From Bacteroidales bacterium (GTDB lineage: Bacteria; Bacteroidota; Bacteroidia; Bacteroidales; UBA932): a stretch of DNA of 64,000 bases. The stretch's first letter is position 1. Every line of letters starts with the position of its first letter. Both the position numbers and the translations under genes were made by a program. The DNA is taken from assembly GCA_017619655.1 (NCBI GenBank), contig JAFZRV010000003.1:1-64000 (forward strand). The letters are read 5' to 3'. The notes beneath the pieces were generated by a model. The model saw only the letters and a program-made list of their open reading frames with translations. It did no database searches and was not told where the DNA came from. Shown piece by piece: positions 19,448 to 52,092 of this stretch.

Positions 19448-19463
19448 CGGTCCGAACGGACCG
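19448..19463. repeat. Short palindrome after the S9 peptidase stop
   Basis: CGGTCCG (19448-19454) and CGGACCG (19457-19463) flank two bases directly after the TAG stop. It could add to termination together with the longer hairpin at 19484-19528. Confidence 0.4.
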
Positions 19464-19483
19464 ACCGGGAACAAAACCGGCCG

Positions 19484-19528
19484 AAAATGTGCCCGCCACC
19501 CCGAAAAATGGGATGGCGGGCACATTTT
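19484..19528. terminator. Bidirectional hairpin terminator
   Basis: AAAATGTGCCCGCCA (19484-19498) and TGGCGGGCACATTTT (19514-19528) form a 15-bp stem; the inner CCC and GGG can extend it. The stem ends in T-rich tracts on both strands and lies between the convergent S9 peptidase and SIS genes. Confidence 0.85.
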
Positions 19529-19548
19529 GGCTGGAATTTGTTCCCCGA

Positions 19549-20322: not shown

Positions 20323-20324
20323 GT

Positions 20325-34784: not shown

Positions 34785-34791
34785 AACGCTG

Positions 34792-34799
34792 CAAAGATA
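34792..34799 (-). promoter_or_regulatory. Promoter -7 box TATCTTTG, near-leaderless
   Basis: A perfect TAnnTTTG box on the minus strand is seven bases (CAGCGTT) from the acyltransferase ATG at 34784. Confidence 0.65.
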
Positions 34800-34842
34800 A
34801 GCATTCACAAGGGGAAACTTTCAATATTTCGCGCAAAAAAGT

Positions 34843-34857: not shown

Positions 34858-36555
34858 ATGACAAGGATTCTTTCAACCAATATCACTTCTCCCCTTGGCC
34901 TGACGACCGAGGAAAACTATGCGGCTGTCCGGCGCGGCGAATCGAGCCTGAAGCAAATGGATGGCTGCCTGGGTGTTCCGGGGCATTTTTGCGTCGGTAT
35001 TTTCTCCGATGCGCAGAGAGCCGCCCTTCAGCAGGAGGGTTTCAGCTGGTTCGAGTCGCTGGTGCTCCATTCCGTGAAGGATGCGATGGCCCGCGGCGCC
35101 GTGGATCCCTCATCCCCGAGGACCCTGCTGGTCCTGGGCACCTCCACCGCCGGCATCGAAGAACTGGGAGACGTTCCCGAGAAAGACCGGAACTATCTCG
35201 CGCCCGGCGTTGCCGCGAAAAAAGTCGCGGACGCACTGGGTTTTGCCAACGATCCGCTGACGGTCAGCAACGCCTGCATTTCCGGAGGTACTGCCCAGAT
35301 GCTGGCAGACCGGCTGATCGCTTCCGGCGAGTACGATACGGCCGTCGTCTGCGGCGTCGATGCCCTCTCGGCCTTCGTCCTGGCCGGCTTCGACTCCTTC
35401 AAGGCCTTGTCTCCCGTCCCCTGCAAGCCTTTCGACATCGAGCGCCTGGGCCTCAACATCGGAGAATGTGCCGCCACCGTGGTGCTGTCCGACAAAGCTG
35501 GAAAAGACACGGATGCCTGGTATATCATCGACGGCTGCCTCAACAACGACGCCTACCATGTCAGCGCACCCATCCCCAGCGGAGACGGCGTGTGCCGGGC
35601 CATCAAAAAGATCCTGACCCCGGAGCGGAAAGCCACCCTCGCCTGCGTCGCGGCGCACGGTACGGCGACCATGTTCAACGACCAGATGGAATCCAAGGCC
35701 ATCGAGAACGCGGGGCTGGGCGACATCCTCACGACCACGGTCAAGCCGCACTACGGACACAGTTTCGGGGCGTCCGGCATCGTCGAGTCCATCATCATGA
35801 TGTGCGCCCTCGACGACGGCGTCATTCCCCCGACGCCGGGATTCGAAGAAATCGGCGTCAGCGGGAAGATCAAGGTCTGCAGCCAGCCCGAACCTACCGA
35901 TAAAAAAGCCTTCATCAAGTTGCAGTCCGGCTTCGGCGGCTGCAACGGCGCGATGATCTACGCCAAAACACCCGCCCCCGCCCCCGCTCCGGAAAAAGTC
36001 CCTTACGAAGTGGCCAGGCGCCTCCGCCTTACACCGGAAGCCCTTTGGCTGGACGACCAGGCGGTTCCGCTGGAAGCCCGCGGCGCGGCCCTCGTCACGG
36101 AAATCTTCAAGAAGTTCCTGGCGGACGGTTCCCGCTTCTTCAAGATGGATCTCTACAGCCGGCTCGCCTATGTCGGCACAAGCCTCCTGGCGAAAGACGC
36201 CCTGGAGGCCTGCGATCCGGAAGACCGGGCCATGGTCATCTTTACTGAAAACGGCTCTGTCCTGGCGGACCGGAAGCATCTTTCCACCTTCTCCAATCCC
36301 GAAGAATTCTTCCCCAGCCCCGCCGTCTTCATCAACACGCTTCCCAACGTCGTCCTGGGAGAAATCGCCGTCAAGAACGACATCAAGGGCGAGACCACGC
36401 TGGTGCTGCTGCCCCGGCGGGACGAAGCGGCCATGCATCGGATCGTCGAAGCGACCACGGCCGCCACAAAGCCTTCCGCCCTGCTGTGCGGCTGGGTGGA
36501 CTGCGCAGGCGAAGATTCTTTTGTTGCCGACCTTAAACTCATGAAAATCCTATGA
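34858..36555 (+). CDS. Beta-ketoacyl-ACP synthase fused to a pseudo-ketosynthase half domain (KS1)
   Basis: Residues 1-375 form a full FabF-like ketosynthase with Cys140 (NACISGG), His267 (AAHGTATM), Lys296 and His301 (KPHYGHSFGASG). A Pro/Ala linker (TPAPAPAPEKVP) leads to a second region (about 380-565) that matches only the N-terminal half of a thiolase fold (SPAVFINTLPNVVLGEIAVK) and lacks an active-site Cys. Ketosynthases extend the acyl chain on ACP with malonyl units; the pseudo-domain may act as a chain-length factor. It opens the cluster block, and its ATG is seven bases after a promoter box. Its stop overlaps KS2 as ATGA. Confidence 0.88.
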   Translation: MTRILSTNITSPLGLTTEENYAAVRRGESSLKQMDGCLGVPGHFCVGIFSDAQRAALQQEGFSWFESLVLHSVKDAMARGAVDPSSPRTLLVLGTSTAGIEELGDVPEKDRNYLAPGVAAKKVADALGFANDPLTVSNACISGGTAQMLADRLIASGEYDTAVVCGVDALSAFVLAGFDSFKALSPVPCKPFDIERLGLNIGECAATVVLSDKAGKDTDAWYIIDGCLNNDAYHVSAPIPSGDGVCRAIKKILTPERKATLACVAAHGTATMFNDQMESKAIENAGLGDILTTTVKPHYGHSFGASGIVESIIMMCALDDGVIPPTPGFEEIGVSGKIKVCSQPEPTDKKAFIKLQSGFGGCNGAMIYAKTPAPAPAPEKVPYEVARRLRLTPEALWLDDQAVPLEARGAALVTEIFKKFLADGSRFFKMDLYSRLAYVGTSLLAKDALEACDPEDRAMVIFTENGSVLADRKHLSTFSNPEEFFPSPAVFINTLPNVVLGEIAVKNDIKGETTLVLLPRRDEAAMHRIVEATTAATKPSALLCGWVDCAGEDSFVADLKLMKIL

Positions 36556-38270
36556 AAAAGATGGGAGGAACCATATCTGTGACCGGCATGGGCATTCTCT
36601 GCGCCATCGGTAACGACCAGCAAGCCGTCCTCGACGCGCTCAGAAACAGGCAATCGGGCATCGGCCCGATGAAATATCTCCCGTCGGTACATACGGACAT
36701 CCCGGTCGGCGAAATCAAACTGTCTACCGAAGCGATGAAGCAGATGCTGGGCATCGCCAGCGACGAGACGGTCAGCAGGACATCGGTGATCGGCGCGCTG
36801 GCCGTGCGGGAAGCCCTGGCACAGGCCGGGATTCAAGATGTCGCCGGCAAACGGGTAGCCCTCATTTCGGGGACCACCGTGGGGGTGATGGACGTGACGG
36901 AGCAGCAGTTCATCCAGGCCAAGGCAGCATCCGGGCTTTCCCTCAACGGCAACGAATGCGGTAAAAGCACACAGGAAATCGCCCGGTACGCGGGCCTGGC
37001 CGACGCCAAGTGCTGCACGATCTGCACGGCGTGCTCCTCCGCCCTGAATGCCATCATGCTGGGCTCCGACATGTTGAAGAACGATGAGGTCGACCTGGTC
37101 GTCGCCGGCGGCTCGGAGCCGCTGAGCATTTTCCATCTGAACGGATTCAACACCCTGATGATTCTCGACCGGGAGCGCTGCCGCCCCTTTGACGATACGC
37201 GCGCCGGCCTCAACCTGGGAGAGGGCGCGGCATTCGTCGTGCTGCAAAAAGACGTGCCGGGCGGCCTGGCCTATATCCACGGCTATGCGAACCGCTGCGA
37301 CGCCTTCCACCAGACGGCGACCTCCAAGAACGGCGAAGGCGCCTTCCAGGCGATGACCGGAGCCCTCCGGATGGCCGGATTGCAGCCGGAAGACATCAAG
37401 TATATCAACGCCCACGGCACCGGCACGCCCGACAACGACGCCTCGGAAACCGCCGCGTTCAGGCGGGTGTTCGGAGAGAAACTGCCCGAAATGTCCAGCA
37501 CCAAGTCCTATACCGGGCACACCACGTCCGCCGCCGGCTCCGTCGAGACGGTCATCTGCATCCTGGCTATGCAGCACAGCTTCGTGCCGGCGTCCCTCGG
37601 ATGGAGCCACCGCATGCCGGACGGTTATATCCCCTCCATGGGGCGGACCGGCATCGACCTGGACTATGTCATGTGCAATTCCTTCGGCTTCGGCGGCAAC
37701 GATTCGTCCCTGATCCTCGGCAAAGGCAAGCCGAAGGAGGGGGCTGCGCCCCTGCCGGAAGCGTCCCGGATCGGCATTGCCGCCCGAAGGGTCGTCTCCC
37801 ATGACGAAGAACTCGTCGAATTGAAGGAATATATGTCTCCCATGGAGTCCCGGCGCATGGGAAAAATCATGAAAGCCAGCCTGCTGTCGGCCTTTTCCGT
37901 ATTGAAGGACGCCGGCCTGGAGCGACCCGATGCGATCATCGCCGCGACCTCCCAGGGAATGCTGGAACTGAGCGCCATCTTTTTGGAAGACATCGTCGCG
38001 AACCGCGAAGAGCAGCTGAAGCCGACCGTTTTCATGCAGTGCACGCACAACACCATCGCCTCGGCCATCGCCATCCGGACGGGCTGCCACGGATACAACA
38101 TCACCTATTCCCAGGGCGACGACTCCGCCGCCTGGGCCGTCCGGGATGCGAAAATGCTGCTGCGGAAAGGCGAAGCGAAGACGGTGCTCGTCTGCGCGTT
38201 CGACGAGGAGCTGTCCGACGGAAGGACGAGCCGTTTCAAAGCCGAAAGTACCCTCTATACGATTGCCTAG
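36552..38270 (+). CDS. Beta-ketoacyl-ACP synthase fused to a pseudo-ketosynthase half domain (KS2)
   Basis: The 572-residue protein has a full ketosynthase (about residues 1-390) with Cys161 (CTACSSAL), His288 (NAHGTGTPDND), Lys318 and His323 (TKSYTGHTTSAAG). A second part (about 400-572) resembles the N-terminal half of a ketosynthase (QCTHNTIASAIAIRTGCHG) but has SQGDDSAAW where the Cys site should be. Thus it looks like KS plus chain-length-factor-like half in one chain. It starts in the KS1 stop (ATGA) and is followed directly by the PlsC-like gene (TAG then ATG). Confidence 0.88.
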   Translation: MKKMGGTISVTGMGILCAIGNDQQAVLDALRNRQSGIGPMKYLPSVHTDIPVGEIKLSTEAMKQMLGIASDETVSRTSVIGALAVREALAQAGIQDVAGKRVALISGTTVGVMDVTEQQFIQAKAASGLSLNGNECGKSTQEIARYAGLADAKCCTICTACSSALNAIMLGSDMLKNDEVDLVVAGGSEPLSIFHLNGFNTLMILDRERCRPFDDTRAGLNLGEGAAFVVLQKDVPGGLAYIHGYANRCDAFHQTATSKNGEGAFQAMTGALRMAGLQPEDIKYINAHGTGTPDNDASETAAFRRVFGEKLPEMSSTKSYTGHTTSAAGSVETVICILAMQHSFVPASLGWSHRMPDGYIPSMGRTGIDLDYVMCNSFGFGGNDSSLILGKGKPKEGAAPLPEASRIGIAARRVVSHDEELVELKEYMSPMESRRMGKIMKASLLSAFSVLKDAGLERPDAIIAATSQGMLELSAIFLEDIVANREEQLKPTVFMQCTHNTIASAIAIRTGCHGYNITYSQGDDSAAWAVRDAKMLLRKGEAKTVLVCAFDEELSDGRTSRFKAESTLYTIA

Positions 38271-39035
38271 ATGTCCCGTATCCTCCAGCTGCCGATGACG
38301 ATTCTCCGTTTTCTCAAGACGGTGTTCATCCTGCTGTTGTATGTCGTCGTCATGCTGGTCTTCGTGACGCCCGGCGCCTTCCTCTACCTAAAATGCGGGA
38401 AACACACCGAGAAGAAGAAGGAGAATCTCCACAAGTTCATCCGCTGGTCGGCCCGGTGCGGCATCGCCCTTCTGGGCTTTTTCGGGAACAAATTCACGTT
38501 GGCGGGCCGTACCGACGAGGATTTCTCCCGCCCGGCCATCATTACCTGCAACCACCAGTCGCACCTCGACCTGCTGCCGATGCTGGCCCTGACCCCCAAA
38601 CTGGTCATCCTGACGGCGGACTGGGTGTGGCACAATCCCCTGTACGGCTTTATCATCCGGGAAGCCGATTTTCTCCCGGCCTCGAAAGGCCTCGAGGTCA
38701 TCGCCCCTCGCCTCCGCGAACTGGTCGACAAAGGGTACAGCATCGCCGTCTATCCCGAGAGCACACGCTCCCTGGACGGCAGCATCGGCCGCTTCCACCA
38801 GGGCGCCTTCTATCTGGCGGACCAGCTGCAGGTGGACATCCTCCCCGTCGTCCTGTTCGGCGCGGGGAAAGCGCTTCCCAAGCATGGCCGCCTGCTCCGT
38901 CGCGGGCCCATCCGCCTGGAGATAGACGAGCGGATTTCGCCGGAGGAAATGAAAACCCATGGAGACACGTATAAGGCCCAGGCCTCTTACCTGAGAAGTT
39001 ATTATATCTCCCGGTGCGGGGAAAGCGAGTCATGA
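38271..39035 (+). CDS. PlsC-family 1-acyl-glycerophosphate-type acyltransferase
   Basis: The 254-residue protein has an N-terminal hydrophobic stretch (about residues 15-35) and the PlsC motifs ITCNHQSHLDLLPM (NHX4D, about residue 85) and AVYPESTRSLDGSIGRFHQG, with EST in place of the common EGT. PlsC enzymes move an acyl chain from ACP or CoA to a hydroxyl of a glycerol lipid. Within the cluster it may join the polyene acyl chain to a lipid carrier. It is one base from KS2 and overlaps the exporter gene (ATGA). Confidence 0.87.
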   Translation: MSRILQLPMTILRFLKTVFILLLYVVVMLVFVTPGAFLYLKCGKHTEKKKENLHKFIRWSARCGIALLGFFGNKFTLAGRTDEDFSRPAIITCNHQSHLDLLPMLALTPKLVILTADWVWHNPLYGFIIREADFLPASKGLEVIAPRLRELVDKGYSIAVYPESTRSLDGSIGRFHQGAFYLADQLQVDILPVVLFGAGKALPKHGRLLRRGPIRLEIDERISPEEMKTHGDTYKAQASYLRSYYISRCGESES

Positions 39036-41797
39036 AGATAACGGACGTATTTGATTTCTTCTCCAGGAACCGGGGTATCCGGAGCGTCAGCCTGATCGCG
39101 CTCTCCGTCATCCTGGCCGTCCTGCTGTCCAGATTGGATTTCAGCGAGGACATCAGTGATTTCCTGCCGCTCGGAACGCGGGAGCGGGAACAGATGTCCG
39201 TCTATCAGACTATCTCCGGCGCCGACAAGTTGCTGATCCTGTTCTCCAACCCCGGGGACGCGGACGAGACGGTCGAGGCGATCGACTGCTTCGTCGACGC
39301 CGCGCTGGAAAACGACACCAAAGGCTGGTGCGAAAAAATCAGCGCCCAGTTCGACATGGACGCCCTGGCCGGTGTTTCCAACTTTGTCTATGACAACATC
39401 CCGTACTTCCTGACGGAGAGCGATATAGCGAGAATGGACAGCCTCCTGGCCGAGCCCGCCTGTATCCCGTCGGCGCTGGCGAGGGACAAGCAGGTGCTGA
39501 TGTTCCCCAATCCCTCCCTCGTCGTGAAAGGCATCTCGCACGATCCCCTGGGACTCTTCAGCCCGGTCATGGAACGGCTCCAGGCTTCCTCCGGCCAGCA
39601 GGGCTTTGAACTGTACGACGGCTATATCTTCACACCGGACATGAGCCGGGCCGTCGTGATGCTGGATTCTCCTTTCGGAAACAGCGAGACCAGCAACAAC
39701 GCGAAACTGCTCCACTACCTGGAGGAGACCTCCCTGCAGATGCAGGAGCGCTATCCTGACGTCAGCGTCGACATCATCGGAGGCCCCGCCATCGCGGTGG
39801 GGAACTCATCCCGGATCAAGAAGGACAGCGTCCTTGCGATCGCCCTGTCCGTCATCCTGATGGTCCTGCTGCTGGCGTATTCGTTCAATTCCGTCAAGAA
39901 CATCTTCCTCATCTTCCTGACCGTCGGCTGGGGCCTGCTCTTCGCCCTGGGAAGCCTGGCGCTGTTCCGCGACAACGTGTCCATCATCGTCATCGGCATT
40001 TCCAGCGTCATCATCGGCCTGGCCATCAATTATCCCCTGCACCTGGTCGCCCATACGGCCTATCAGCCGGACCGGCGGCTGGCGATCAGCGAGATCGCCT
40101 CTCCCCTGGTCGTCGGAAACATCACGACGGTCGGCGCCTTCCTGGCGCTGGTCCCGCTGAAATCGACGGCCCTGCGCGACCTGGGCCTCTTCGCGTCCCT
40201 GCTGCTGGTCGGAACCATCCTGTTCGTGCTGATTTACCTGCCGCATTATGTGGCGACGGCCCACGGAAAAAAGCGGGCGAACGGCCGTCTCATCGAGCGC
40301 CTTTCCGCCTTTTCGCCGGAAAAGATCAAGGGCATGGTCGCCGGTACGGCCATCATCACCCTCGTCCTGCTGTATTTCAGTCTCCAGACGGAATTCGATT
40401 CCGACATGTCCCACATGAACTACATGACGGCGAACCAGCAGCGGGAGATGCAGTATTTCGAGGACCTGCTGACCAAAGACGATACCCATACCGCCCGGAG
40501 CCTGTATGTCTACGGCAGCGGCAGCACGTTCGACGAGGCCCTGGAAGCCATCGCCCCCGGCGGCGCCCGCATCGACAGCCTGTCCGCGAACGGCGTCCTG
40601 ACGAAGCAGAACGAGGCACTGGCGTTCATCACGACCCGGGCGGAACAGCAGCAGCGGCTTCAGCGCTGGAACCGTTTTGTCGACCGCCATCGCGACCGGC
40701 TGACGGATGAGCTCCGGGAAGAGGCCGTGAAGGCCGGTTTCGCGCCCGGCGCCTTCGCGTCCTTCAACCAGCTGATCGCGAACGCGCCTTCCCTCACCGC
40801 GCAGGACATCGATTATTTCGAGCCCCTCGTCCAGACTGTCTTCAACCAGAATTTCACCCGTTCCGACGACAACGGAACCGTCTACGTGGTGTGTCCGGTC
40901 AACGTGCAGCCGGACCGGCTGGAGACCGCCAAAACGGCCTTGGGAGACGACTGCTTCGAAATCAGCGAAATCAACCGGTCCATGACCCGTAGCCTTTCCG
41001 ACAATTTCAACTATATCGGATGGGCTTGCTCCCTGATTGTGTTCTTCTTCCTCTGGTTCTCCTTCGGGCGCATCGAACTGGCCGTCATCTCCTTCCTGCC
41101 GATGGCCGTCAGCTGGGTCTGGATCCTCGGCATCATGGCCCTGCTCGGCATCAAGTTCAACATCGTCAATATCATTCTGGCGACCTTCATCTTCGGCCAG
41201 GGCGACGATTACACGATCTTCATGACCGAAGGGTGCCAGTATGAGTATTCCCGGCGACGGCCCATCCTCAAGGCCTACAAGAGCAGCATCATCCAGTCGG
41301 CCGCCATCATGTTCGTCGGCATCGGCACCCTGATCGTCGCGAAACATCCCGCCATGCATTCCCTGGCGGAAGTGACGATCATCGGCATGTTCTCCGTCGT
41401 GCTGATGGCCTACCTGATCCCTCCCTTCCTGTTCAATTTCCTGACGACGAAGAAGGGACAGGCCCGCCCCTATCCCATCACCCTGAAAACGCTCTTGCTG
41501 GGACGGCCCAAAGACCTGGCAGCCCGGGTGGAAGGGCGCTATGCCTACAAGGGAAAGGAGATCGAGCGCTGCGTACGGCGCAACCTGAAAGAAAAATCCC
41601 GTGCGATCCTGGCCATGAAGGTGGAAGGGCCGCAGTCCGTCGACTATCGCGACGACGGCTATGGCGAACTGTCCTTCCTGCTGGCCCTTTCGCATCCTGA
41701 CATAACCGTCGTTTCGCATATTTCCGACGAGGAACGGCGGCAGATCGCCCTGGTGGCGACACAAGGTATGGTTGACAATATCATTATTCAAAGTTAG
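39032..41797 (+). CDS. RND/MMPL-family lipid exporter
   Basis: The 921-residue inner-membrane protein shows two RND-type halves: an N-terminal helix (SLIALSVILAVLL), a large periplasmic loop, a helix bundle (about residues 265-410), a second loop and a second bundle (about 660-800) with SFLPMAVSWVWILGIMALLG and FIFGQGDDYTIFM. The GDD acidic motif in the second bundle and the loop sizes fit MMPL proteins that move lipids or polyketides to the periplasm. In aryl polyene clusters the MMPL protein works with a LolA-like carrier, which is at 46152-46757. The start at 39032 overlaps the previous stop as ATGA. Confidence 0.9.
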   Translation: MKITDVFDFFSRNRGIRSVSLIALSVILAVLLSRLDFSEDISDFLPLGTREREQMSVYQTISGADKLLILFSNPGDADETVEAIDCFVDAALENDTKGWCEKISAQFDMDALAGVSNFVYDNIPYFLTESDIARMDSLLAEPACIPSALARDKQVLMFPNPSLVVKGISHDPLGLFSPVMERLQASSGQQGFELYDGYIFTPDMSRAVVMLDSPFGNSETSNNAKLLHYLEETSLQMQERYPDVSVDIIGGPAIAVGNSSRIKKDSVLAIALSVILMVLLLAYSFNSVKNIFLIFLTVGWGLLFALGSLALFRDNVSIIVIGISSVIIGLAINYPLHLVAHTAYQPDRRLAISEIASPLVVGNITTVGAFLALVPLKSTALRDLGLFASLLLVGTILFVLIYLPHYVATAHGKKRANGRLIERLSAFSPEKIKGMVAGTAIITLVLLYFSLQTEFDSDMSHMNYMTANQQREMQYFEDLLTKDDTHTARSLYVYGSGSTFDEALEAIAPGGARIDSLSANGVLTKQNEALAFITTRAEQQQRLQRWNRFVDRHRDRLTDELREEAVKAGFAPGAFASFNQLIANAPSLTAQDIDYFEPLVQTVFNQNFTRSDDNGTVYVVCPVNVQPDRLETAKTALGDDCFEISEINRSMTRSLSDNFNYIGWACSLIVFFFLWFSFGRIELAVISFLPMAVSWVWILGIMALLGIKFNIVNIILATFIFGQGDDYTIFMTEGCQYEYSRRRPILKAYKSSIIQSAAIMFVGIGTLIVAKHPAMHSLAEVTIIGMFSVVLMAYLIPPFLFNFLTTKKGQARPYPITLKTLLLGRPKDLAARVEGRYAYKGKEIERCVRRNLKEKSRAILAMKVEGPQSVDYRDDGYGELSFLLALSHPDITVVSHISDEERRQIALVATQGMVDNIIIQS

Positions 41798-41803
41798 TAT
41801 ATC

Positions 41804-44247: not shown

Positions 44248-45041
44248 TACGCCAGGTTATCTTTCAGGAAACGGACAACCGTGTCGAGGAGGCGGGCCTT
44301 ATTGCCGTTCAGAAAATGGTTGTCGTCTTCGAAAATCGTCAGTTCGCTGTTCTTGTAGGACTGATGATAGCGCTCGGCGTACGAGACCGGCACAATTTTG
44401 TCTTTTCTCCCCTGGATGATGCACACCTTCCCGGTATACTGGCAGGAAGTCTCATAGAGCGGCAGTTTCTGGGCTTCCAGGATAAAGCGGCGGCCCAGCT
44501 TGTGGAAGAACACGCTGACATACTCCGGGGGATTGGAGGCATCATACCTGGAGCGCATGCACTGGCCGGCGATGGCGTCGTCCTTGAGGACGGCAGCCGG
44601 CGCCAGCAGGACGACGCACTTGGGGCGCTCCGGCTGGTCTTCCAGCTCTCCGGCCAGCATGCCGGCGACAACACCGCCCTGCGAATGGCCCACCAGCGCG
44701 ACCTCCGACACGAAAGGCAGCTTGCGGGCATAGTCCAGCACCGCCCTGGCATCGGCTATCTCGCTCGAAATCGTCATGTCGATGAACTTGCCTTCGCTCT
44801 TGCCGTGGGCGTCAAAGTCGAAACGGATCGAGGCGATGCCGGCCTTGGCAAGGGCCCTGGCGATGGCCGGAAGCGGATACATTTCCTTTTTCGACATGAA
44901 GCCATGCATCAGGACGGCCAAAGGGCACTTGTCCTTCTCCTTGTCAAAACCATCCGGAAGTACCAGCGTAGTGGCGATTCCGCCATAGGGGCCGAATACT
45001 TCATAAGCAGGGCGACCCGAAAAGATAGAAAAAAAGGCCAT
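44247..45041 (-). CDS. Alpha/beta hydrolase (serine aminopeptidase-like)
   Basis: The 264-residue protein has VLMHGFMSKKEMYPLPA (HG oxyanion motif), FDFDAHGKSEG, the nucleophile elbow VALVGHSQGGVVAG (Ser about residue 115) and the acid/His regions GRKDKIVP and EDDNHFLN. No signal peptide is visible, so it is probably cytosolic. In type II polyketide pathways such thioesterase-like hydrolases release or edit acyl chains. It lies one base after the glycosyltransferase gene and one base of overlap before the secreted esterase. Confidence 0.82.
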   Translation of the reverse strand: MAFFSIFSGRPAYEVFGPYGGIATTLVLPDGFDKEKDKCPLAVLMHGFMSKKEMYPLPAIARALAKAGIASIRFDFDAHGKSEGKFIDMTISSEIADARAVLDYARKLPFVSEVALVGHSQGGVVAGMLAGELEDQPERPKCVVLLAPAAVLKDDAIAGQCMRSRYDASNPPEYVSVFFHKLGRRFILEAQKLPLYETSCQYTGKVCIIQGRKDKIVPVSYAERYHQSYKNSELTIFEDDNHFLNGNKARLLDTVVRFLKDNLA

Positions 45042-45042
45042 A

Positions 45043-45789
45043 TCAATGTCTTGTATGATTCAGAAGTTTATGGATCAGCATGCGGGGATAGCCATAGACG
45101 AGCGCCAGCACGCAAAGCAGCGTGTTCAGGAAGCTGATGCGGGCGAAATCGCGGAAGGGGCGGAAGCTCGACACGCGGTCTTCCGGATAGCAGACCCGGA
45201 TGGCCACGGGCACCAGCTCGATTCCTTTCCAGGCCGAAAAGACCAGCAGCGCCAGTTCCGCTTCATAGCGGGAAGTCAGGATCCGGAGGCTCGGCAGCCG
45301 GTCCAGCGGGTAGGCCCGGTAGCCTGTCTGGGTGTCGGGCAGGGAGCGGGCGGTCTGCACCCGGAACCAGAAATTGGAGAAGCGGTTGGCGAAGCTGTTG
45401 CCCCCCGGCATGTTCTCGGCCTGCAGATTGCGGCTGCCCACGACCAGGGCGCCGGGGTGCTGTGCGATCGCCTCCACCAGCACCGGAATGTCTTCCGGAT
45501 AGTGCTGGCCGTCGGCATCGAGGGTGATGGCGTAGCGGAAACCCTGCTCTCGCGCATGCGAAAAGGCCGTACGCAGGGCCACGCCCTTGCCGCGGTTGCG
45601 GGGATGCGTCAGCACGGTCAGCGGCAGCCCGGACTGCGCCAGGCGCGCGGCCGTGTCGTCGGTGCTGCCGTCGTTGACGACGATGACCGGATAGCCCTGG
45701 GCGACGGCACGAGCGGCCACGTCGCACACCGTCCCGGCGTTGTTGTAGGTCGGGATGATGACGCAGCTATTCGCGGTCGCACGGTTCAT
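45043..45789 (-). CDS. Family 2 glycosyltransferase
   Basis: The 248-residue protein has the GT2 fold: CVIIPTYNNAGTVCDVAARA, VIVVNDGSTDDTAARL, the DxD-type ITLDADGQHYPED and a C-terminal hydrophobic stretch (about residues 215-240) that can anchor it. Aryl polyene clusters often include a GT2 or GT2-acyltransferase fusion that builds the lipid or sugar anchor. It overlaps the dehydratase stop by one base (TGATG) and continues the minus block. Confidence 0.87.
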   Translation of the reverse strand: MNRATANSCVIIPTYNNAGTVCDVAARAVAQGYPVIVVNDGSTDDTAARLAQSGLPLTVLTHPRNRGKGVALRTAFSHAREQGFRYAITLDADGQHYPEDIPVLVEAIAQHPGALVVGSRNLQAENMPGGNSFANRFSNFWFRVQTARSLPDTQTGYRAYPLDRLPSLRILTSRYEAELALLVFSAWKGIELVPVAIRVCYPEDRVSSFRPFRDFARISFLNTLLCVLALVYGYPRMLIHKLLNHTRH

Positions 45790-46142
45790 CAGGGCTTCAG
45801 GGTGAGTTTCATCCGCGCGCAGAGGGTGTCGCCGGAGACGACGTGCACCGACCAGACGTCGGGCTGGTCGACCGGCAGCGGGCGGGAATACTGAAACTCC
45901 AGTTCGCTGATCTCGCCGGGCAGCACGGGGTGGACGAAACGGATGTCGGAGGCCTCTTCCACATCGAGGTCCTTGCCGACGCTGGCCCCGACCAGCTCAC
46001 AGGCCATCTGGATGATGCAGGCGCCGGGCGTCACGGGCATTCCCTTGAAATGGGCCGCATAGATGGGACTGTCGGGAAGGAGCCGGATCCGGGCCGACGT
46101 GGCCGAGATGAGCTGCGGGGTATAGAGATAATCTTTTAACAT
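45789..46142 (-). CDS. Hot-dog dehydratase subunit with catalytic His only (ApeI/FabZ-like)
   Basis: The 117-residue protein is a single hot-dog fold with the FabZ segment AAHFKGMPVTPGACIIQM. His31 matches the catalytic His of FabZ, but the acidic partner expected 14 residues later is Gln45. It follows the LolA-like gene and precedes the GT2. In FabZ-type enzymes the His and Glu come from the two chains of a dimer, so this chain may pair with the cluster's other hot-dog protein, which has the Glu (47411-47851). The reaction would be removal of water from 3-hydroxyacyl-ACP to make the polyene double bonds. Confidence 0.85.
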   Translation of the reverse strand: MLKDYLYTPQLISATSARIRLLPDSPIYAAHFKGMPVTPGACIIQMACELVGASVGKDLDVEEASDIRFVHPVLPGEISELEFQYSRPLPVDQPDVWSVHVVSGDTLCARMKLTLKP

Positions 46143-46151
46143 AGTCGAAGC

Positions 46152-46757
46152 TTAAGGTTTCTGGAAAAGAGTGGGATCGAGTTTTTCTCCCCGCACCACG
46201 GAGCTGAGTTCAAGTTGCGTGGTATCGCCTTCCTGCCCGGTCAGCACGATGGAGCGCAGCGCACCCGTCCCGGCGTCGGTCAGCAGGGAGATGCGGGTGA
46301 AGAGCTGGCTCAGGTCGCGCCGCAGGGGCACGAGGTCCACTTGCCAGACCCGGGGCGAGGCATAGACCGTGACGATGAAGTCGGTCTCGTTGATGAGGCC
46401 TTTCTCGCCGAGTTTCGCAACGTTGCGCATCAGGCTCTGCTGCCGCCGGTCGCCCGGGTTGATGCCGTCCATCACGAACAGGCTGGGACGGGGCTGCTCC
46501 ACTTCCCAGCGCACCTTGTCGGGATAGACGTAGGCGGCCCGGCCGCGGCTCACCAGGTCTTCGGCGAGCATGGCGTTGTGGCGGGTCATGACGAAGCGGA
46601 ACTGGAGCGTGGTCTGCAGGTCGTTGGCCTGCAGGATCGTGGCGATGGCTTTCTCGCGGGCGGCTCCTTCGAGCTGCTGCGCGGCACCCGGGGCCGTCTG
46701 CGCGAAAAGCGGCAGGCAGCACAGGCTCAGGAGCAGGATCAGGCTGATTCTTTTCAT
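46152..46757 (-). CDS. LolA-like outer-membrane lipoprotein carrier
   Basis: The 201-residue protein has a signal peptide (KRISLILLLSLCCLPLFAQ) and a LolA-type fold pattern: FRFVMTRHNAMLAEDLVSRG, AYVYPDKVRWEVEQPRPSLF and SLLTDAGTGALRSIVLTGQE. LolA proteins ferry lipids through the periplasm. In this cluster it is a natural carrier for a lipid-linked product handed over by the MMPL exporter at 39032-41797. It lies six bases after the SMR-like gene and nine before the hot-dog gene. Confidence 0.85.
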   Translation of the reverse strand: MKRISLILLLSLCCLPLFAQTAPGAAQQLEGAAREKAIATILQANDLQTTLQFRFVMTRHNAMLAEDLVSRGRAAYVYPDKVRWEVEQPRPSLFVMDGINPGDRRQQSLMRNVAKLGEKGLINETDFIVTVYASPRVWQVDLVPLRRDLSQLFTRISLLTDAGTGALRSIVLTGQEGDTTQLELSSVVRGEKLDPTLFQKP

Positions 46758-46763
46758 GATGCG

Positions 46764-47117
46764 TTATCGGACCATCAGCGCCGAACCGGCCATGATGAGC
46801 AGGACGCCCACCCACTGGCTGACGCTGACGTGTTCATGAAAGATCATGATGGCAGCAATCGTGCCGAAAATGTAGCTGATGCTCGTCAGCGGATAGACGA
46901 TGCTGAACGGGAAATGCTTCAGCATATACATCCACAGGACGGTAGCCACGCCGAAAGAAATGCCGCAGCCCAGGAACCACCAGTTGGTGAGCTGCGCCTT
47001 GAAAAAGGCCCATGTCCAACTGAACGGGCCGGAAGCTTCCATGCCCAGTTTCAGCAGCACCTGGCCGCCGCACAGGAACAGACTCTGAAAAAGCGAGAAT
47101 AACAGGATTCTCAGCAT
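46764..47117 (-). CDS. Small four-helix transporter of the EamA/DMT-SMR type
   Basis: The 117-residue protein has four membrane helices: an N-terminal helix, one with FLGCGISFGVATVLWMYML, one with IVYPLTSISYIFGTIAAIMI and one with WVGVLLIMAGSALMV. This is the small-drug-resistance/EamA half-transporter pattern; such proteins can flip lipid-linked or polyisoprenyl-linked sugars (ArnE/F type). It lies between an ACP gene and the LolA-like gene, three bases from the ACP stop, so a lipid-flipping role in the pathway is a fair guess. Confidence 0.8.
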   Translation of the reverse strand: MLRILLFSLFQSLFLCGGQVLLKLGMEASGPFSWTWAFFKAQLTNWWFLGCGISFGVATVLWMYMLKHFPFSIVYPLTSISYIFGTIAAIMIFHEHVSVSQWVGVLLIMAGSALMVR

Positions 47118-47120
47118 ACG

Positions 47121-47381
47121 CTATTTCTTGCGGTTTTTCGACACGTAGTCGGCCATCACGGCCACGGACTGGAAAACGGCCTTGCCTTCAGCGGGGCTGG
47201 AGAGCTTGATGCCATAGTTCTTTTCCATCAGCACGATGAGCTCGAGCACATCGATCGAATCCAGGCCGAGGCCCTCGTCGCCGAAGAGCGGGGCGTTGTC
47301 GTCGATGTCGGCCGGGGTCATTTCCTCCAGATTCAGCGCGTTGATGATCTGGACTTTAATCTCTTCAATCAGTTCTTTCAT
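47121..47381 (-). CDS. Acyl carrier protein (ACP-B)
   Basis: The 86-residue protein has the ACP signature GLGLDSIDVLELIVL with the phosphopantetheine attachment Ser42. The surrounding acidic helix II is typical of type II FAS carriers. It is one of three carrier domains in the cluster (with 48745-48978 and the fused domain at 41804). It follows the second hot-dog gene by 29 bases. Confidence 0.93.
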   Translation of the reverse strand: MKELIEEIKVQIINALNLEEMTPADIDDNAPLFGDEGLGLDSIDVLELIVLMEKNYGIKLSSPAEGKAVFQSVAVMADYVSKNRKK

Positions 47382-47410
47382 ATCTGAAAATTGTTAATTC
47401 ATACGGATCA

Positions 47411-47851
47411 TTACTCGTCGATCTCCTTGTCGCTGCCGGCTGTCTTGATGGCGGCCGTGGCGATGAGTTCGCCCTGGCAGCGGACCTCCACGTCGGTCAG
47501 CGTGATGCCGAAGATATTCTCCCGGAAGGTCACCGTGGTCTCGAGCAGCTCGCCGCAGCGCGGATGGCGGTAGACCTTGAGCTTGCGGACGCTGCCGATG
47601 TAGCCGATGGTCACGGGGATGTGCAGGACATAGCGGGCGATGTACCCGACCCGGGCCGCGCTCGACTGGGCCATGTGCTCCACCAGGCCGCCCGTGGCAA
47701 AACGGCCGTTCTCCACGAAGATGCCCTGCTCGGGAATCCGGAAGGAAGTGCGGGTGCACTCTTCCTCATGGTGCAGGAGATGGTCCACGAACACGAAGGG
47801 CGGACGCTGCGGAAGCAGGTATTCGATCGGAATCTGGTCAAAGGGTGTCAT
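47411..47851 (-). CDS. Hot-dog dehydratase subunit with catalytic Glu only (ApeP-like)
   Basis: The 146-residue protein is a hot-dog fold of the ApeP/3-hydroxyacyl-ACP dehydratase-like group: LPQRPPFVFVDHLLHH, VENGRFATGGLVEHMAQ. Aligned on MAQ, Glu58 matches the catalytic Glu of FabZ, while the position of the FabZ His is Ile44. It thus lacks the His that the other cluster hot-dog protein has. The start at 47851 (MTPFDQ) overlaps the acyltransferase stop as ATGA; an upstream TTG is less likely. A heterodimeric dehydratase with 45789-46142 is inferred. Confidence 0.85.
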   Translation of the reverse strand: MTPFDQIPIEYLLPQRPPFVFVDHLLHHEEECTRTSFRIPEQGIFVENGRFATGGLVEHMAQSSAARVGYIARYVLHIPVTIGYIGSVRKLKVYRHPRCGELLETTVTFRENIFGITLTDVEVRCQGELIATAAIKTAGSDKEIDE

Positions 47852-48738
47852 TTCCAAAAATCGTAAAAATTAAACCATTGGGTGGGATATTGCCGGACCA
47901 CTCCTTCCAGGCAGGCGGCGAATTCCCGGGCCATTGCCTCGGCGCGCACGCGCGAAGGCAGGGCCGGGTCGATCTTCTCTCCGATCTGCCGGACGAAAAT
48001 GCGGTAGCGCCGCACCGCCTCCTTCATCACGAAAACCGCGACGATGGGAACGGAGCGCTGGGCCGCCAGCATATAGGGCCCGGCCGGGAAAGGGGCGGGT
48101 TCGCCGAAAAAAGGACAGGCGAAGGTCTTCTGGGAGCCGAACACCCGGTCGCCGGGCATGCTCACGATGCCGCCGTCCCGCAGGATCTCGTTGAGCCGGA
48201 ACAGGTGCGACATGTCGTCGGAGACGGGCACCATCTCGACGTTGGTCCGGGCAAACATGGCGGCGCGCTGCTGCATCACCGTCTCGGTCTCGCCGGAATA
48301 CACCAGGGTTCCCATCTTTTTGATCGAACGGAGCATATAGCCCACCAGCTCGAAGTTGCCCGTATGGGAGCCCAGCTGCACGAAGCCCGGCTCCGCTTCC
48401 GACAGGCGGGTGAACACCGGCATCTCTTCGTTGTCCAGCTCGAAAGAGCGGCCCGCATACTGGGCGAAGCGGTCCACTACGACCTGTCCCAGGCGGAATT
48501 CATTGGCATAGACGCTGCAGAACGCATGCAACGGGTTTCTCCCGATCCGTTTGCGGAAAAACCGGTAGGAAGCCAGATAGCCCCGCCGGTCAAAGAGCAT
48601 GAAGAACGGGATGACGGGGACCATGCAGGCGTAGGCCAGCGGGATGGGGATGAAGCGGAAAAGCTTCACCATCGCCCGCTGCATCCACGACGTGCCGACG
48701 GTCGAACCCTGCCAGTCGCTATGGTCGTACTGCGCCAA
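47848..48738 (-). CDS. LpxL/HtrB-family acyltransferase
   Basis: The 296-residue protein has an N-terminal WQG segment (DWQGSTVGTS), a hydrophobic anchor (about residues 25-50) and the LpxL catalytic motif FVQLGSHTGNFELVGYML (His and acidic residue, H-x4-E, about residue 120), followed by VSMPGDRVFGS and FPAGPYMLAAQ. This family transfers acyl chains from ACP to lipid A-type hydroxyls; in aryl polyene clusters a member is thought to join the polyene to its lipid anchor. The start is probably a TTG at 48738, since the conserved WQG stretch precedes the first ATG. Confidence 0.85.
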   Translation of the reverse strand: MAQYDHSDWQGSTVGTSWMQRAMVKLFRFIPIPLAYACMVPVIPFFMLFDRRGYLASYRFFRKRIGRNPLHAFCSVYANEFRLGQVVVDRFAQYAGRSFELDNEEMPVFTRLSEAEPGFVQLGSHTGNFELVGYMLRSIKKMGTLVYSGETETVMQQRAAMFARTNVEMVPVSDDMSHLFRLNEILRDGGIVSMPGDRVFGSQKTFACPFFGEPAPFPAGPYMLAAQRSVPIVAVFVMKEAVRRYRIFVRQIGEKIDPALPSRVRAEAMAREFAACLEGVVRQYPTQWFNFYDFWK

Positions 48739-48744
48739 AGTCTT

Positions 48745-48978
48745 TTAACCGACTCTTTCCGTGATATAGTCTACGAACTGTCCGAAGGTCTTGATGTCCT
48801 TGAACTCCTCGGATTTCATCTTGAAGCCGAATTCGCGTTCCACGAACACCACGGTATCCACGACTTCCAGGCTGTCGATGCCCATGTCTTCTTTCAGGCG
48901 TGCGTCAGGGTTGATTTTCGCCGGATTGATTTCCATTTCATCCACCAGGAAGTTCTTGATTCTTTCTTCTATAGTCAT
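48745..48978 (-). CDS. Acyl carrier protein (ACP-A)
   Basis: The 77-residue protein has EDMGIDSLEVVDTVVF with phosphopantetheine Ser36, normal for a stand-alone carrier. It is the first gene of the minus block, downstream of a TATCTTTG box, and lies six bases before the LpxL-like gene. Confidence 0.93.
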   Translation of the reverse strand: MTIEERIKNFLVDEMEINPAKINPDARLKEDMGIDSLEVVDTVVFVEREFGFKMKSEEFKDIKTFGQFVDYITERVG

Positions 48979-49024
48979 TGCTTAAAGGTTTTAGTTTAGT
49001 ATTATTCCGTTCAGTATAAGGCGA

Positions 49025-49032
49025 CAAAGATA
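49025..49032 (-). promoter_or_regulatory. Promoter -7 box TATCTTTG for the minus cluster block
   Basis: A perfect TAnnTTTG box on the minus strand lies 46 bases before the ACP-A ATG. TTTC at about 20 bp upstream may be its -33 element. Confidence 0.7.
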
Positions 49033-49062
49033 CTCATTATTCTTTTAAATCCGAAAATTGCG

Positions 49063-49070
49063 TATCTTTG
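49063..49070 (+). promoter_or_regulatory. Promoter -7 box TATCTTTG for the KS3 block
   Basis: A perfect TAnnTTTG box on the plus strand lies 28 bases before the KS3 ATG. It is divergent from the ACP-A promoter within one 120-base gap, so both blocks could share a regulator. Confidence 0.75.
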
Positions 49071-49098
49071 CGCGACTAAAACCTTAGATACCGAACAC

Positions 49099-50322
49099 AT
49101 GGACAAACGTGTCGTCATAACTGGAATGGGCATCTGGTCGTGCCTGGGAACCACCTTGGACGAGGTGCGCGATTCCCTGTACACCGGCAAATCCGGCATC
49201 GTCCTCGACCCCGCCCGCAAAGAAATGGGCTTCCGGTCCGGCCTCACCGGCCTCGTGCCCATGCCCGAACTGAAAGGAGAACTCCCCCGCTCGCAGCGGG
49301 TCTATATGCCCGAACCGGCCCAATACGCCTATTGCGCCACCCGTGACGCCCTGCAGCAGGCCCGCATCGATGCGGACTTCCTCGCCGCCAACGAGATCGG
49401 CATCCTTTACGGCAACGACAGCACCGCCGACGCCGTGTACAAGTCGGTCGCGACCATCCACGAGAAAAAAGATACGATGCTCTGCGGCTCGGGTGCCATC
49501 TTCCAGTCGATGAACTCCACCGTGACGATGAACCTGAGCGTGATCTTCAAGCTCAAGGGCATCAACCTCACCGTGTCGGGTGCCTGCGCCAGCGGTTCCC
49601 ACGCCATCGGCCTCGGCGCCCTGCTCATCCGCAACGGCCTGCAGGACATCGTGGTCTGCGGCGGCGCCCAGGAAGTCAACGCAGCCGCCACCGGCTCGTT
49701 CGACGGCATCTCCGCCTTCTCCGTCCGCGAAGACGCGCCGGAGAAAGCCAGCCGTCCCTTCGACCGCGACCGCGACGGCCTCGTCCCGGGCGGCGGTGCC
49801 GCGACGGTCATCCTCGAAAGCTATGAATCGGCCGTGCGCCGCGGCGTACCCATCATCGCCGAGGTGCTGGGCTACGGCTTCTCGAGCAATGGCGAGCACA
49901 TCTCCAACCCCAATGTCGACGGACCCCGCCGGGCGCTGGAACGTTCCATCCGCCAGGCCGGCCTGAACATCGACCAGATCGGCTACATCAACGCACACGC
50001 CACCTCCACGCACGTGGGCGACACCAACGAGGCCAAGGCCATCTACGCCGTCATCGGCGACCACCGCATCCCCGTGACCAGCACCAAGAGCCAGACCGGC
50101 CACGAGATGTGGATGGCAGGCGCCAGCGAGATCGTCTATTCGATCCTGATGATGAAGAACGAATTCATCGGCGCCAACATCAACTTTGAGAACCCGGACG
50201 AAGACTCGGCGAAACTGTTCATCCTTCCCGAGCGCATGTCCTGCCATTTCGATACCTTCCTGTCGAACTCCTTCGGATTCGGCGGCACCAACTCCTCCCT
50301 GGTCATCCGCGACATCCGCTAG
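49099..50322 (+). CDS. Beta-ketoacyl-ACP synthase (KS3, FabF-like)
   Basis: The 407-residue protein is a stand-alone ketosynthase with Cys163 (GACASGSHAIG), His300 (NAHATSTHVGDTNE), Lys330 and His335 (TKSQTGHEMWMAG). The C-terminal SNSFGFGGTNSSLV is typical. It has no pseudo-domain, unlike KS1 and KS2. It opens the third block, one base before the FAD oxidoreductase ATG. Confidence 0.92.
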   Translation: MDKRVVITGMGIWSCLGTTLDEVRDSLYTGKSGIVLDPARKEMGFRSGLTGLVPMPELKGELPRSQRVYMPEPAQYAYCATRDALQQARIDADFLAANEIGILYGNDSTADAVYKSVATIHEKKDTMLCGSGAIFQSMNSTVTMNLSVIFKLKGINLTVSGACASGSHAIGLGALLIRNGLQDIVVCGGAQEVNAAATGSFDGISAFSVREDAPEKASRPFDRDRDGLVPGGGAATVILESYESAVRRGVPIIAEVLGYGFSSNGEHISNPNVDGPRRALERSIRQAGLNIDQIGYINAHATSTHVGDTNEAKAIYAVIGDHRIPVTSTKSQTGHEMWMAGASEIVYSILMMKNEFIGANINFENPDEDSAKLFILPERMSCHFDTFLSNSFGFGGTNSSLVIRDIR

Positions 50323-50323
50323 C

Positions 50324-51370
50324 ATGGCAGCGCGGCAGGTCATCATCATCGGTGCCGGACTGGGCGGCCTGGTGTGCGGCAGGATCCTCTCCCGCCAGGG
50401 CTGCGACGTCACCCTCCTGGAACAGGGCACGCAAGCCGGCGGCGCCCTGCAGACCTTTGTCCGCGACGGCATCCGCTTCGACACCGGCTTCCACTCCGTG
50501 GGCGGCCTGGAGCCCGGCGAGCCGCTCGACCTGATCTTCCGCCAGCTCGACCTGCGCGACCTGCCATGGTTCCCCATGGAACCCGATGAATGCATAGGCT
50601 GCAACGAGCCCTTCCTCCGCCTGTCCACCGGCTGGGAAGAGGAACGCAAGCACGTGCTGAAGCCTTATCAGCATGGCATCTGGCGTCTGAAAGGTGGAGG
50701 CAAGACCCTCGTCGACGCACTGGCGAAAGACCAGCGGGTCCTGCTCCGCAAGAAAGTCACGGCCATCGAAGACCGGAGCGTCTTCTGCGCCGACGGCAGC
50801 AGCTACCGCGGCGACATCGTCATCTCCGACATCCATCCGGCGGTGACCATGCGCCTGGTCCGCGACCACATCCGGCCCTCCTATCTGCAGCGCCTGGACG
50901 TCCTGTCCAACGGCCCCGGCGCCTTTACCGTCTACGCCAAGTTGAAGCCCGGCACGATACGCCACCTGCGGCACAGCATCTTCGTCGACAACGATTTCAT
51001 GATCCATTTCGGCGATGAAGCCATCAACGGCTACGCCCTTTCCCTCGATATCGTCACCTTCGTGGCCGGCACGCCGGCCGAGCGGAAAGCCTTCGCCGAA
51101 GAACTCATCCGGAAAGCCGCCAGGCGGCTGCCGGAACTGCCCGAAGCCATCGAGAAATACTGGACCAGCACCCCGCAGACCTGGGAACGCTACACCGGTA
51201 CGCCCGGCGGCTCCGCCTATGGCATCCGAAAGAACAGCCGCGCCGACTTCCTGGCGCCGCAGACCCCCCTGCCCTGGCTCTACCTGACCGGACAGAACCT
51301 GGGCCTGCACGGCATCCTGGGAACCTCGGTTTCGGCCCTCAATACCTGTAATTCCATCTCCCTCCTATGA
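50324..51370 (+). CDS. FAD-dependent oxidoreductase (phytoene desaturase-like, short)
   Basis: The 348-residue protein has the N-terminal Rossmann motif VIIIGAGLGGLVCGRIL (GxGxxG) and LLEQGTQAGGALQTF, and the C-terminal TGQNLGLHGILGTSVSA, like carotenoid-desaturase relatives, but it is about 130-150 residues shorter than phytoene desaturases. It may oxidise or desaturate the acyl chain or aromatic head. The start at 50324 is one base after the KS3 stop. It overlaps the ketoreductase as ATGA, so KS3, this and the ketoreductase form one unit. Confidence 0.82.
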   Translation: MAARQVIIIGAGLGGLVCGRILSRQGCDVTLLEQGTQAGGALQTFVRDGIRFDTGFHSVGGLEPGEPLDLIFRQLDLRDLPWFPMEPDECIGCNEPFLRLSTGWEEERKHVLKPYQHGIWRLKGGGKTLVDALAKDQRVLLRKKVTAIEDRSVFCADGSSYRGDIVISDIHPAVTMRLVRDHIRPSYLQRLDVLSNGPGAFTVYAKLKPGTIRHLRHSIFVDNDFMIHFGDEAINGYALSLDIVTFVAGTPAERKAFAEELIRKAARRLPELPEAIEKYWTSTPQTWERYTGTPGGSAYGIRKNSRADFLAPQTPLPWLYLTGQNLGLHGILGTSVSALNTCNSISLL

Positions 51371-52092
51371 ACTACGCACTCGTTACCGGCGGCAGCCGGG
51401 GCATCGGCCGCGCGGCCTGCATCCGTCTCGCAGCACAGGGCTTCGCCATCCTGATCAACTATGTGTCCAACGAACAGAAGGCCCGCGAAACCGCGGAGCT
51501 GGTCGAACAGGCCGGCGGACAGGCCACGCTCCTGAAGTTCGACGTGGCCGACGCCGATGAAACGAACACCGTGCTCGGCGGCTGGATGCAGTCGCATCCC
51601 GACGATTTCATCGAAGTGCTGGTCAACAATGCGGGCATCCGCCGCGACGGCCTGCTCATCTGGACCGAGCCGGAAGACTGGCACCGCGTGCTCGACACGA
51701 CCCTCAACGGCTTCTACAACGTAACCCGTCCCCTGCTGCAGCCCATGCTGCTGAAGAAACGCGGCCGCATCATCAACGTGGCTTCGCTGACGGGCCTGAA
51801 AGGCATGCCCGGCCAGACGAACTACGCCGCCGCCAAAGGCGGCCTGATCGCCGCCACGAAGTCGCTCGCACAGGAAGTCGGCCGCAAGAAAGTGACGGTC
51901 AACGCCATCGCGCCCGGTTTTGTCAAAACGGACATGGTGGACGGCCTCGACGAGGCGACCCTCAAGAAAGACATTCCGCTGCAGCGCTTCGGCGAACCGG
52001 AAGAAGTGGCCGCCCTCATCGGCTTCCTCGCTTCTCCCGAAGCCGCCTACATCACCGGCGAATGCATCTCCATCAACGGAGGACTCTATTAA
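51367..52092 (+). CDS. 3-oxoacyl-ACP reductase (FabG-like ketoreductase)
   Basis: The 241-residue protein is a short-chain dehydrogenase with the NADP motif GGSRGIGRAACIRLA, VNNAGIRRDGL, Ser in VASLTGL and the catalytic YAAAKGG (Tyr-x3-Lys), plus the C-terminal YITGECISINGG. It would reduce the 3-ketoacyl-ACP made by the ketosynthases before dehydration. It is the last gene of the KS3 block. Confidence 0.93.
   Translation: MNYALVTGGSRGIGRAACIRLAAQGFAILINYVSNEQKARETAELVEQAGGQATLLKFDVADADETNTVLGGWMQSHPDDFIEVLVNNAGIRRDGLLIWTEPEDWHRVLDTTLNGFYNVTRPLLQPMLLKKRGRIINVASLTGLKGMPGQTNYAAAKGGLIAATKSLAQEVGRKKVTVNAIAPGFVKTDMVDGLDEATLKKDIPLQRFGEPEEVAALIGFLASPEAAYITGECISINGGLY

Follow-up and report, generated by a model that had tools for sequence, protein, structure and literature searches.

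The stretch of Bacteroidales DNA analysed here (GenBank contig JAFZRV010000003.1, positions 1 to 64,000; the whole 64,000 nucleotides are called the window) carries a cluster of 18 genes at 34858–52092, joined by a further member, the acyltransferase gene AT0, at 33651–34808. The cluster is of the aryl polyene (APE) type, an assignment that we regard as firm. The best explanation that we can offer, at not quite an even chance, is that it makes an APE lipid of gut Bacteroidales, and that the starter is a plant hydroxycinnamate freed by Hyd2, a hydrolase encoded close to the starter ligase. The evidence consists of gene content, homology, adjacency, conserved residues and the absence of the acid-supplying routes that were searched for, and from it we infer the chemistry, the order of the steps and the identity of the acid. 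Contig C11, which is the window, comes from a genome of 1.4 Mb that is 60.65% complete.

An APE cluster is expected to need a ketosynthase with a chain-length factor (KS/CLF), carriers, a ketoreductase, dehydratases and an aryl-acid ligase. The cluster proteins were compared by BLAST with the 18 Ape proteins of E. coli CFT073 (c1186–c1204; the letters ApeA–R follow gene order, from a table in the available part of the source), with a threshold of E 1e-3. At this level or better, 11 window proteins match 10 of the 18, namely ApeC, D, E, F, H, J, M, O, Q and R. This bears out the APE- or flexirubin-like design proposed in a preliminary description made from the sequence alone, and the list of parts given there, from ketosynthases to a small transporter and in three blocks, was confirmed by Pfam, NCBIfam and BLAST. 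The list counted about 17 genes where we find 18, and it missed the ligase of which the third carrier domain is the N-terminus, the CLF-like halves of two ketosynthases, and AT0. ApeI and ApeL are matched weakly, above the threshold, and the cluster proteins include no convincing BLAST counterpart of ApeA, ApeB, ApeG, ApeK, ApeN or ApeP.

Two of the ketosynthases appear to be KS-CLF fusions. KS1 (34858–36555, plus strand) joins an ApeO-like ketosynthase (32% identity, E 3e-39) to a CLF-like C-terminal half, and KS2 (36552–38270, plus) joins an ApeO-like ketosynthase (PF00109, PF02801; 30%, E 7e-49) to a Ketoacyl-synt_2 domain of ApeC/CLF type (PF13723 at residues 426–556, E 1.4e-12, after the KS domain). 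KS3 (49099–50322, plus) stands alone and is the ApeR counterpart by BLAST (35%, E 3e-71). A KS/CLF pair and an ApeR-type ketosynthase are thus both present, with the caveats that the ApeC match of KS2 is weak (24%, E 2.5e-4) and that KS3 falls with FabB in a tree. The C-terminal half of KS1 has no Pfam match, and contains a conserved block common to 12 aligned sequences. Across these sequences Cys140, His267 and His301 of KS1 are invariant. The AlphaFold model of KS1 (pLDDT 82.9) gives a query TM-score of 0.74 with the PfaC KS-CLF protein 6riw (rmsd 7.9, 14% identity), and 0.53–0.57 with the other 49 of the best 50 rows. As the VIA-align comparison spanned residues 1–373 only, what speaks for a CLF-like C-terminus of KS1 is the alignment of KS1, the match to 6riw and the PF13723 domain of KS2. 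In PfaC, too, a single chain holds both ketosynthase and chain-length factor; the CLF part of KS1 and KS2 is much shorter, at about 180–190 residues. A grouping of all three ketosynthases with housekeeping fatty acid synthases had been named beforehand as a result that would overturn the assignment. Such a grouping was not obtained, and the assignment stands: in the 27-row tree KS1 and KS2 form clades of their own, apart from FabF and FabB, while KS3 does group with FabB, with ApeR nearby on a long branch; the two ketosynthases that the genome has outside the window (by PF00109 count) group with FabF. ApeO and ApeR lie on long branches, and their placing is therefore unsure.

The carriers and the ketoreductase are clearer. 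ACP1 (47121–47381, minus; PF00550) is the counterpart of ApeE (53% identity, E 3e-24), ACP2 (48745–48978, minus; PF00550, E 5e-11) of ApeF (39%, E 1e-16) and KR (51367–52092, plus; PF13561) of ApeQ (44%, E 4e-64). The two hot-dog proteins of the preliminary description stand on different footings. HD1 (45789–46142, minus) has a Pfam match (PF07977, E 1.2e-5) and is read as an ApeI-like hot-dog dehydratase; its match to ApeI is weak (E 0.008), and the alignment shows that the histidine of the HF motif is kept. HD2 (47411–47851, minus) has neither a Pfam match nor a BLAST match to ApeP, and is called FabZ-like from a match to NF000582 (E 4.7e-6; 26.6 bits, far under the cut-off of 113) and from predicted secondary structure, the AlphaFold model (pLDDT 85.8) having one long helix and several strands. 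Compared with ApeP, the Glu is kept and the His is absent, and on fold, position and this shared Glu without His, HD2 is a possible ApeP counterpart.

For lipid assembly, the PlsC-type acyltransferase (38271–39035, plus; PF01553) is the counterpart of ApeD (E 2e-12). ApeJ is represented by two separate proteins, a GT2 glycosyltransferase (45043–45789, minus; PF00535) that matches residues 8–230 of ApeJ (E 1.5e-33), and an LpxL-type acyltransferase (47848–48738, minus; PF03279, E 8.8e-19) that matches residues 245–550 (E 2e-28). The MMPL/RND exporter (39014–41797, plus; PF03176, E 5.5e-11) corresponds to ApeM (E 1.4e-6), and the LolA-like carrier (46152–46757, minus; PF03548, E 2.5e-8) weakly to ApeL (E 0.067). 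The window thus shares with the E. coli CFT073 cluster the KS/CLF, the ApeR-type ketosynthase, the ketoreductase, the ApeE and ApeF carriers, the ApeH-type ligase, the ApeJ-type glycosyltransferase and acyltransferase, PlsC and MMPL, with the hot-dog and LolA-like proteins present and weakly matched. It differs in the split ApeJ, in the fusion, twice over, of KS and CLF, and in the fusion of a third carrier to the ligase, where the E. coli cluster has two carriers in all. Its extra genes encode the hydrolases, a CrtD-like FAD enzyme, an EamA transporter and AT0.

By homology, activation of the starter is encoded within the cluster. The AMP-forming ligase (41804–43342, plus; PF00501, E 2.4e-37, and PF13193) is the predicted counterpart of ApeH (E 1.8e-7), and has a carrier domain at its N-terminus (PF00550, residues 5–66, E 5.7e-5). 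The earlier view that the cluster lacked a recognisable starter enzyme therefore falls, since a ligase predicted to activate the starter lies inside the block, on one chain with a carrier of its own. A profile of the ligase gave 393 candidate stretches, of which 204 were confirmed as relatives and the best 80 of these were used as related loci. By title, 78 of the 80 come from Bacteroidota, the exceptions being L086 (Bacillota) and L101 ('uncultured bacterium'). The nearest named relatives by ligase (83–89% identity) are metagenome-assembled genomes (MAGs) of ruminant-gut Bacteroidales, L030 from goat reticulum, L031 from red deer and L032 from rumen. When 149 genomes sampled evenly across the order were searched, three apart from this one had a ligase match below E 1e-100. 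The carrier is fused to the ligase in 14 of the 80 loci (L030–L042 and L052), forms a separate frame beside it in 65, and gave no clear call in one. The fusion is nearly a clade feature, while a carrier beside the ligase, fused or separate, is general in these loci. The PDB neighbours of the ligase are a mixed list (oxalate, gramicidin, feruloyl, malonyl), from which no conclusion on its substrate was drawn.

The source of the aromatic acid was sought in 52 genomes, our own and 51 ligase-bearing relatives, which are mostly MAGs of unstated completeness. UbiC chorismate lyase (PF04345) was found in none of the 52, with a positive E. coli control, and neither the Rv2949c-like lyase (PF01947) nor the HGD-D dehydratase (PF06050) was found in any, each with at least one positive control genome. 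Ammonia-lyase (PF00221) has no match in our recovered genome, and occurs in 14 of 50 relatives (G055 being left out), with 15 genes in all. Of these genes, 14 are flanked by HutU, HutI or FchA, and the fifteenth, cut off by the end of its contig, shares 89% identity with HutH. The possibility that they are tyrosine ammonia-lyases was rejected, as their neighbours are hut genes of the histidine pathway. PF00221 is absent altogether from the relatives G025 (99% complete) and G111 (86%), and a HutH query found no match in eight stretches upstream of related loci (L172–L179). The preliminary description was thus right that there is no ammonia-lyase, as far as the recovered genome goes, but this is not the oddity it was taken for: the E. 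coli CFT073 APE cluster has none annotated either. In E. coli the 4-hydroxybenzoate comes from UbiC, the product of a housekeeping gene outside the cluster (PMC8253772). The stated absence of a methyltransferase also holds for all 18 cluster genes (Pfam, BLAST), and the suggestion of a scavenged head group has gained support, both from the acid routes that were not found and from Hyd2. As a separate observation, L053 has genes (19159–21338) about 8 kb downstream of its ligase whose products, judged by eye, resemble subunits of indolepyruvate oxidoreductase, and each family recurs in three loci; these genes could supply an arylacetate, or could reflect chance synteny.

Two hydrolases follow the ligase on the opposite strand. 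Hyd1 (43324–44247, minus) is an alpha/beta hydrolase of the BD-FAE/acetylxylan-esterase type (PF20434, E 6.3e-21). Its best PDB matches, 6a6o and 7dwc, are carbohydrate-esterase-like, and carbohydrate and aryl esterase models matched below their cut-offs. Its N-terminus resembles a signal peptide, judged by eye, and homologues occur in 49 of 88 loci. Hyd2 (44247–45041, minus) is a cinnamoyl/feruloyl-esterase-like alpha/beta hydrolase: among its best 10 PDB rows, seven bear the name of a chlorogenic acid or cinnamoyl esterase, Est1E accounts for one, and two have generic names. An orthologue in the L044 cluster, from another clade, gives a list with the same top entries. In the cinnamoyl esterase LJ0536, Asp138 binds the 4-hydroxyl and Tyr169 the 3-hydroxyl of the substrate, and the changes Asp138Ala and Gln145Ala each lose most activity on caffeic esters, as described in PMC3158066. 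Compared with this family (LJ0536, 3pf8; Est1E, 2wtm), Hyd2 keeps the catalytic triad Ser106-Asp197-His225, the oxyanion residue Phe34 and Asp138; it differs in Gln145 to Met, Tyr169 to Phe and Thr144 to Cys, and in sitting in an APE cluster. Est1E likewise does not have the LJ0536 Gln (it has Leu144). Asp138, Met145 and Phe169 are present in all 17 ligase-near Hyd2 sequences that cover these sites (the window and 16 loci; an N-terminal fragment in L033 and the more distant homologue in L088 were not counted). Loss of the contact to the 3-hydroxyl would fit p-coumarate or ferulate better than caffeate. Sixteen homologues from other places were compared as well. Two of them, the G150 and G154 orthologues, agree at all three positions; another eight have Asp138, while at that site five have Ala and one has Gln. 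Asp138 is therefore widespread in the family, which is consistent with a role in the cluster and not specific to one. L088 (Segatella baroniae B14, 3600–4343) has a homologue in which Thr144, Gln145 and Tyr169 are as in LJ0536; at a distance of about 6 kb from the ligase, it falls outside the adjacency count.

In the window and in 16 of the 80 loci (L030, L032, L033, L039–L050 and L064), no more than about 2.5 kb separates Hyd2 from the ligase. A close orthologue (at least 58% identity) is present in 18 of the genomes formed by the 51 relatives and our own (G153 being set aside because its contigs end too soon), and in 16 of these it is near the ligase; across the order, a homologue at E 1e-20 was found in only 5 of 149 evenly sampled genomes, our own included. 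Three arrangements occur, ligase(+) Hyd1(-) Hyd2(-), ligase(+) Hyd2(-) and ligase(+) Hyd2(+). That Hyd2 stays by the ligase despite these changes of order and strand suggests selection.

On this basis we hypothesise the following pathway. A plant hydroxycinnamate, in this clade p-coumarate or ferulate, would be freed from its ester by Hyd2, perhaps together with the secreted-looking Hyd1. The ligase would adenylate the acid and hand it on to its own carrier domain, and KS1 and KS2, with ACP1, ACP2, KR and the HD1/HD2 pair, would lengthen this starter to a polyene. Attachment of the polyene to a lipid anchor would fall to PlsC, AT0, GT2 and LpxL, and outward transport to MMPL, LolA and the small transporter. 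The supply of a hydroxycinnamate from plant esters, self-loaded by the carrier-ligase fusion, we propose tentatively. The wider idea, that herbivore-gut Bacteroidales build outer-membrane APEs on phenolic acids from the diet, with a cluster-encoded esterase and a self-loading fusion in place of ammonia-lyase and chorismate lyase, is a doubtful one. If it were true, the diet would link phenolics of the plant cell wall to a pigment of the bacterial envelope, and a ferulate starter would give a methoxylated head group with no methyltransferase involved. What remains of interest is that no source of the acid was found and that a gene near the ligase encodes a relative of hydroxycinnamoyl esterases. 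A literature search, which did not cover subscription journals, found no paper linking aryl polyenes with feruloyl esterase; the papers matching 'ferul' were unrelated, judging by their titles and the start of their abstracts. Nor did it find one that joins aryl polyenes with Prevotella and acyl carrier proteins, and a gut catalogue was among the papers on arylpolyenes and rumen Bacteroidales.

Several observations weigh against a diet-derived starter. A Hyd2 paralogue with Ala at position 138 gives the same PDB list, so the list names a family and not an activity. The LJ0536 contacts Gln145 and Tyr169 are lost from Hyd2 in 17 of 17 sequences, and 10 of the 16 homologues away from the ligase also keep Asp138. 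The near relatives G150 and G154 carry their orthologue elsewhere in the genome, G167 has a second copy elsewhere, and in L033 (2517–3219) the ligase-near gene is split over two frames, through decay or assembly error. Adjacency is in part common descent, and the 16 loci are not independent events. No signal peptide is evident by eye on Hyd2, so that the ester would have to enter the cell. The substrate of the ligase cannot be read from its sequence. In 64 of the 80 loci Hyd2 is missing from the 2.5 kb or so around the ligase (in some the contig ends), and it is therefore not essential to the pathway. Finally, our genome is 61% complete, the completeness of most relatives is unstated, and an acid-making enzyme of a kind not known may exist. 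The incomplete genome and the 64 loci speak for a serious, if not probable, alternative: that this is an ordinary APE cluster, supplied with 4-hydroxybenzoate, p-aminobenzoate, arylacetate or a similar acid by an unrecognised enzyme elsewhere, and that Hyd2 is a bystander or a detoxifying esterase. E. coli APE clusters do draw their 4-hydroxybenzoate from outside in this way (PMC8253772). Against it, none of the four known routes was found, three families being absent from all 52 genomes and ammonia-lyase occurring in the relatives only as hut genes, and Hyd2 remains near the ligase across changes of order and strand.

Hyd2 might instead act within the pathway, as an editing or release hydrolase on aryl-acyl thioesters or esters, of the carrier or the product, in place of the ApeK thioesterase. 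Its pocket residue for a 4-hydroxyphenyl group is kept, and no ApeK-like match was found in the window, L030, L031, L032 or L035 (phmmer E 1e-4, frames of at least 70 residues; L035 ends after the FAD gene). This proposal is weakened by the eight upstream stretches from genomes with a ligase-near Hyd2, all of which also have an ApeK-like thioesterase, and L031 has a cluster with neither Hyd2 nor an ApeK-like gene; we consider it rather unlikely. Least probable by far is a flexirubin-type cluster whose tyrosine ammonia-lyase and dialkylresorcinol genes fall in the missing 40% of the genome. Flexirubins do start from 4-coumarate, via FlxA and FlxY, and the flexirubin cluster of Chitinophaga pinensis (flxA–flxY) is likewise a Bacteroidota type II system with acyl ligase, LolA, glycosyltransferase, acyltransferase and exporter (both from PMC3992019; compared by description). 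In contrast to it, no tyrosine ammonia-lyase was found in our recovered genome, and PF00221 is confined to hut loci in the 50 relatives and missing from the two named above. Release of a plant hydroxycinnamate by Hyd2 remains the explanation that we prefer.

The cluster also appears to be a mosaic. In seven of the eight upstream stretches the order is KR-KS3-ACP2-LpxL-HD2-thioesterase-KS1-ACP1 (L179 starts inside KS3), and it continues, with variation, through KS2, EamA, LolA, HD1, GT2, PlsC, FAD genes, AT0, MMPL, carrier and ligase. A steady set, KS1, KS2, PlsC, MMPL, ligase, Hyd1 and Hyd2, is 75–89% identical in L030, L031, L032 and L035, 63–74% in L039/L042, and 47–64% in L044, L045 and L050 where present. 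The other genes, AT0, GT2, HD1, LolA, EamA, ACP1, HD2, LpxL, ACP2, KS3, FAD and KR, are 74–99% identical in the first four (except ACP2, 59%, and FAD, 66%, in L032), and fall to 25–70% in L039/L042, where they are hardly closer, if at all, than in L044, L045 and L050. Identity at four-fold sites is 75–86% for KS3, KR, HD2 and GT2 (except KS3 and KR against L032) compared with 59–66% for KS1 and KS2, and is not clearly higher for AT0, LpxL and the carriers. This pattern suggests that an ancestor exchanged about half of the cluster (45043–52092 and 33651–34808) for foreign genes; such a replacement would account for the division into three blocks.

AT0 (minus strand) encodes a PlsC-like acyltransferase (PF01553, E 4.6e-5), and was counted as a cluster member because homologues occur in 49 of 88 loci scanned, often immediately ahead of MMPL. 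The small membrane transporter (46764–47117, minus) is of the EamA/SMR type (PF00892, E 1.1e-9). The FAD oxidoreductase (50324–51370, plus; PF01593/PF13450) belongs to the CrtD/CrtI/carotenoid-isomerase superfamily (TIGR02733, E 1.5e-29, below cut-off) and is possibly a polyene isomerase or desaturase. It has only 348 residues, and many relatives carry two such genes. A donor for the foreign-looking half of the cluster was not found in an LpxL search of 395 genomes, the best match outside our own genome being 49% (G588). G588 was rejected as donor, as its other genes are little closer than those of other relatives. It is worth adding that this genome holds an APE-like cluster (L188, G588:C1:1795000-1814999) that encodes an ApeK-like thioesterase and a methyltransferase resembling ApeB of E. 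coli (45%), with no ligase match in the 40 kb taken.

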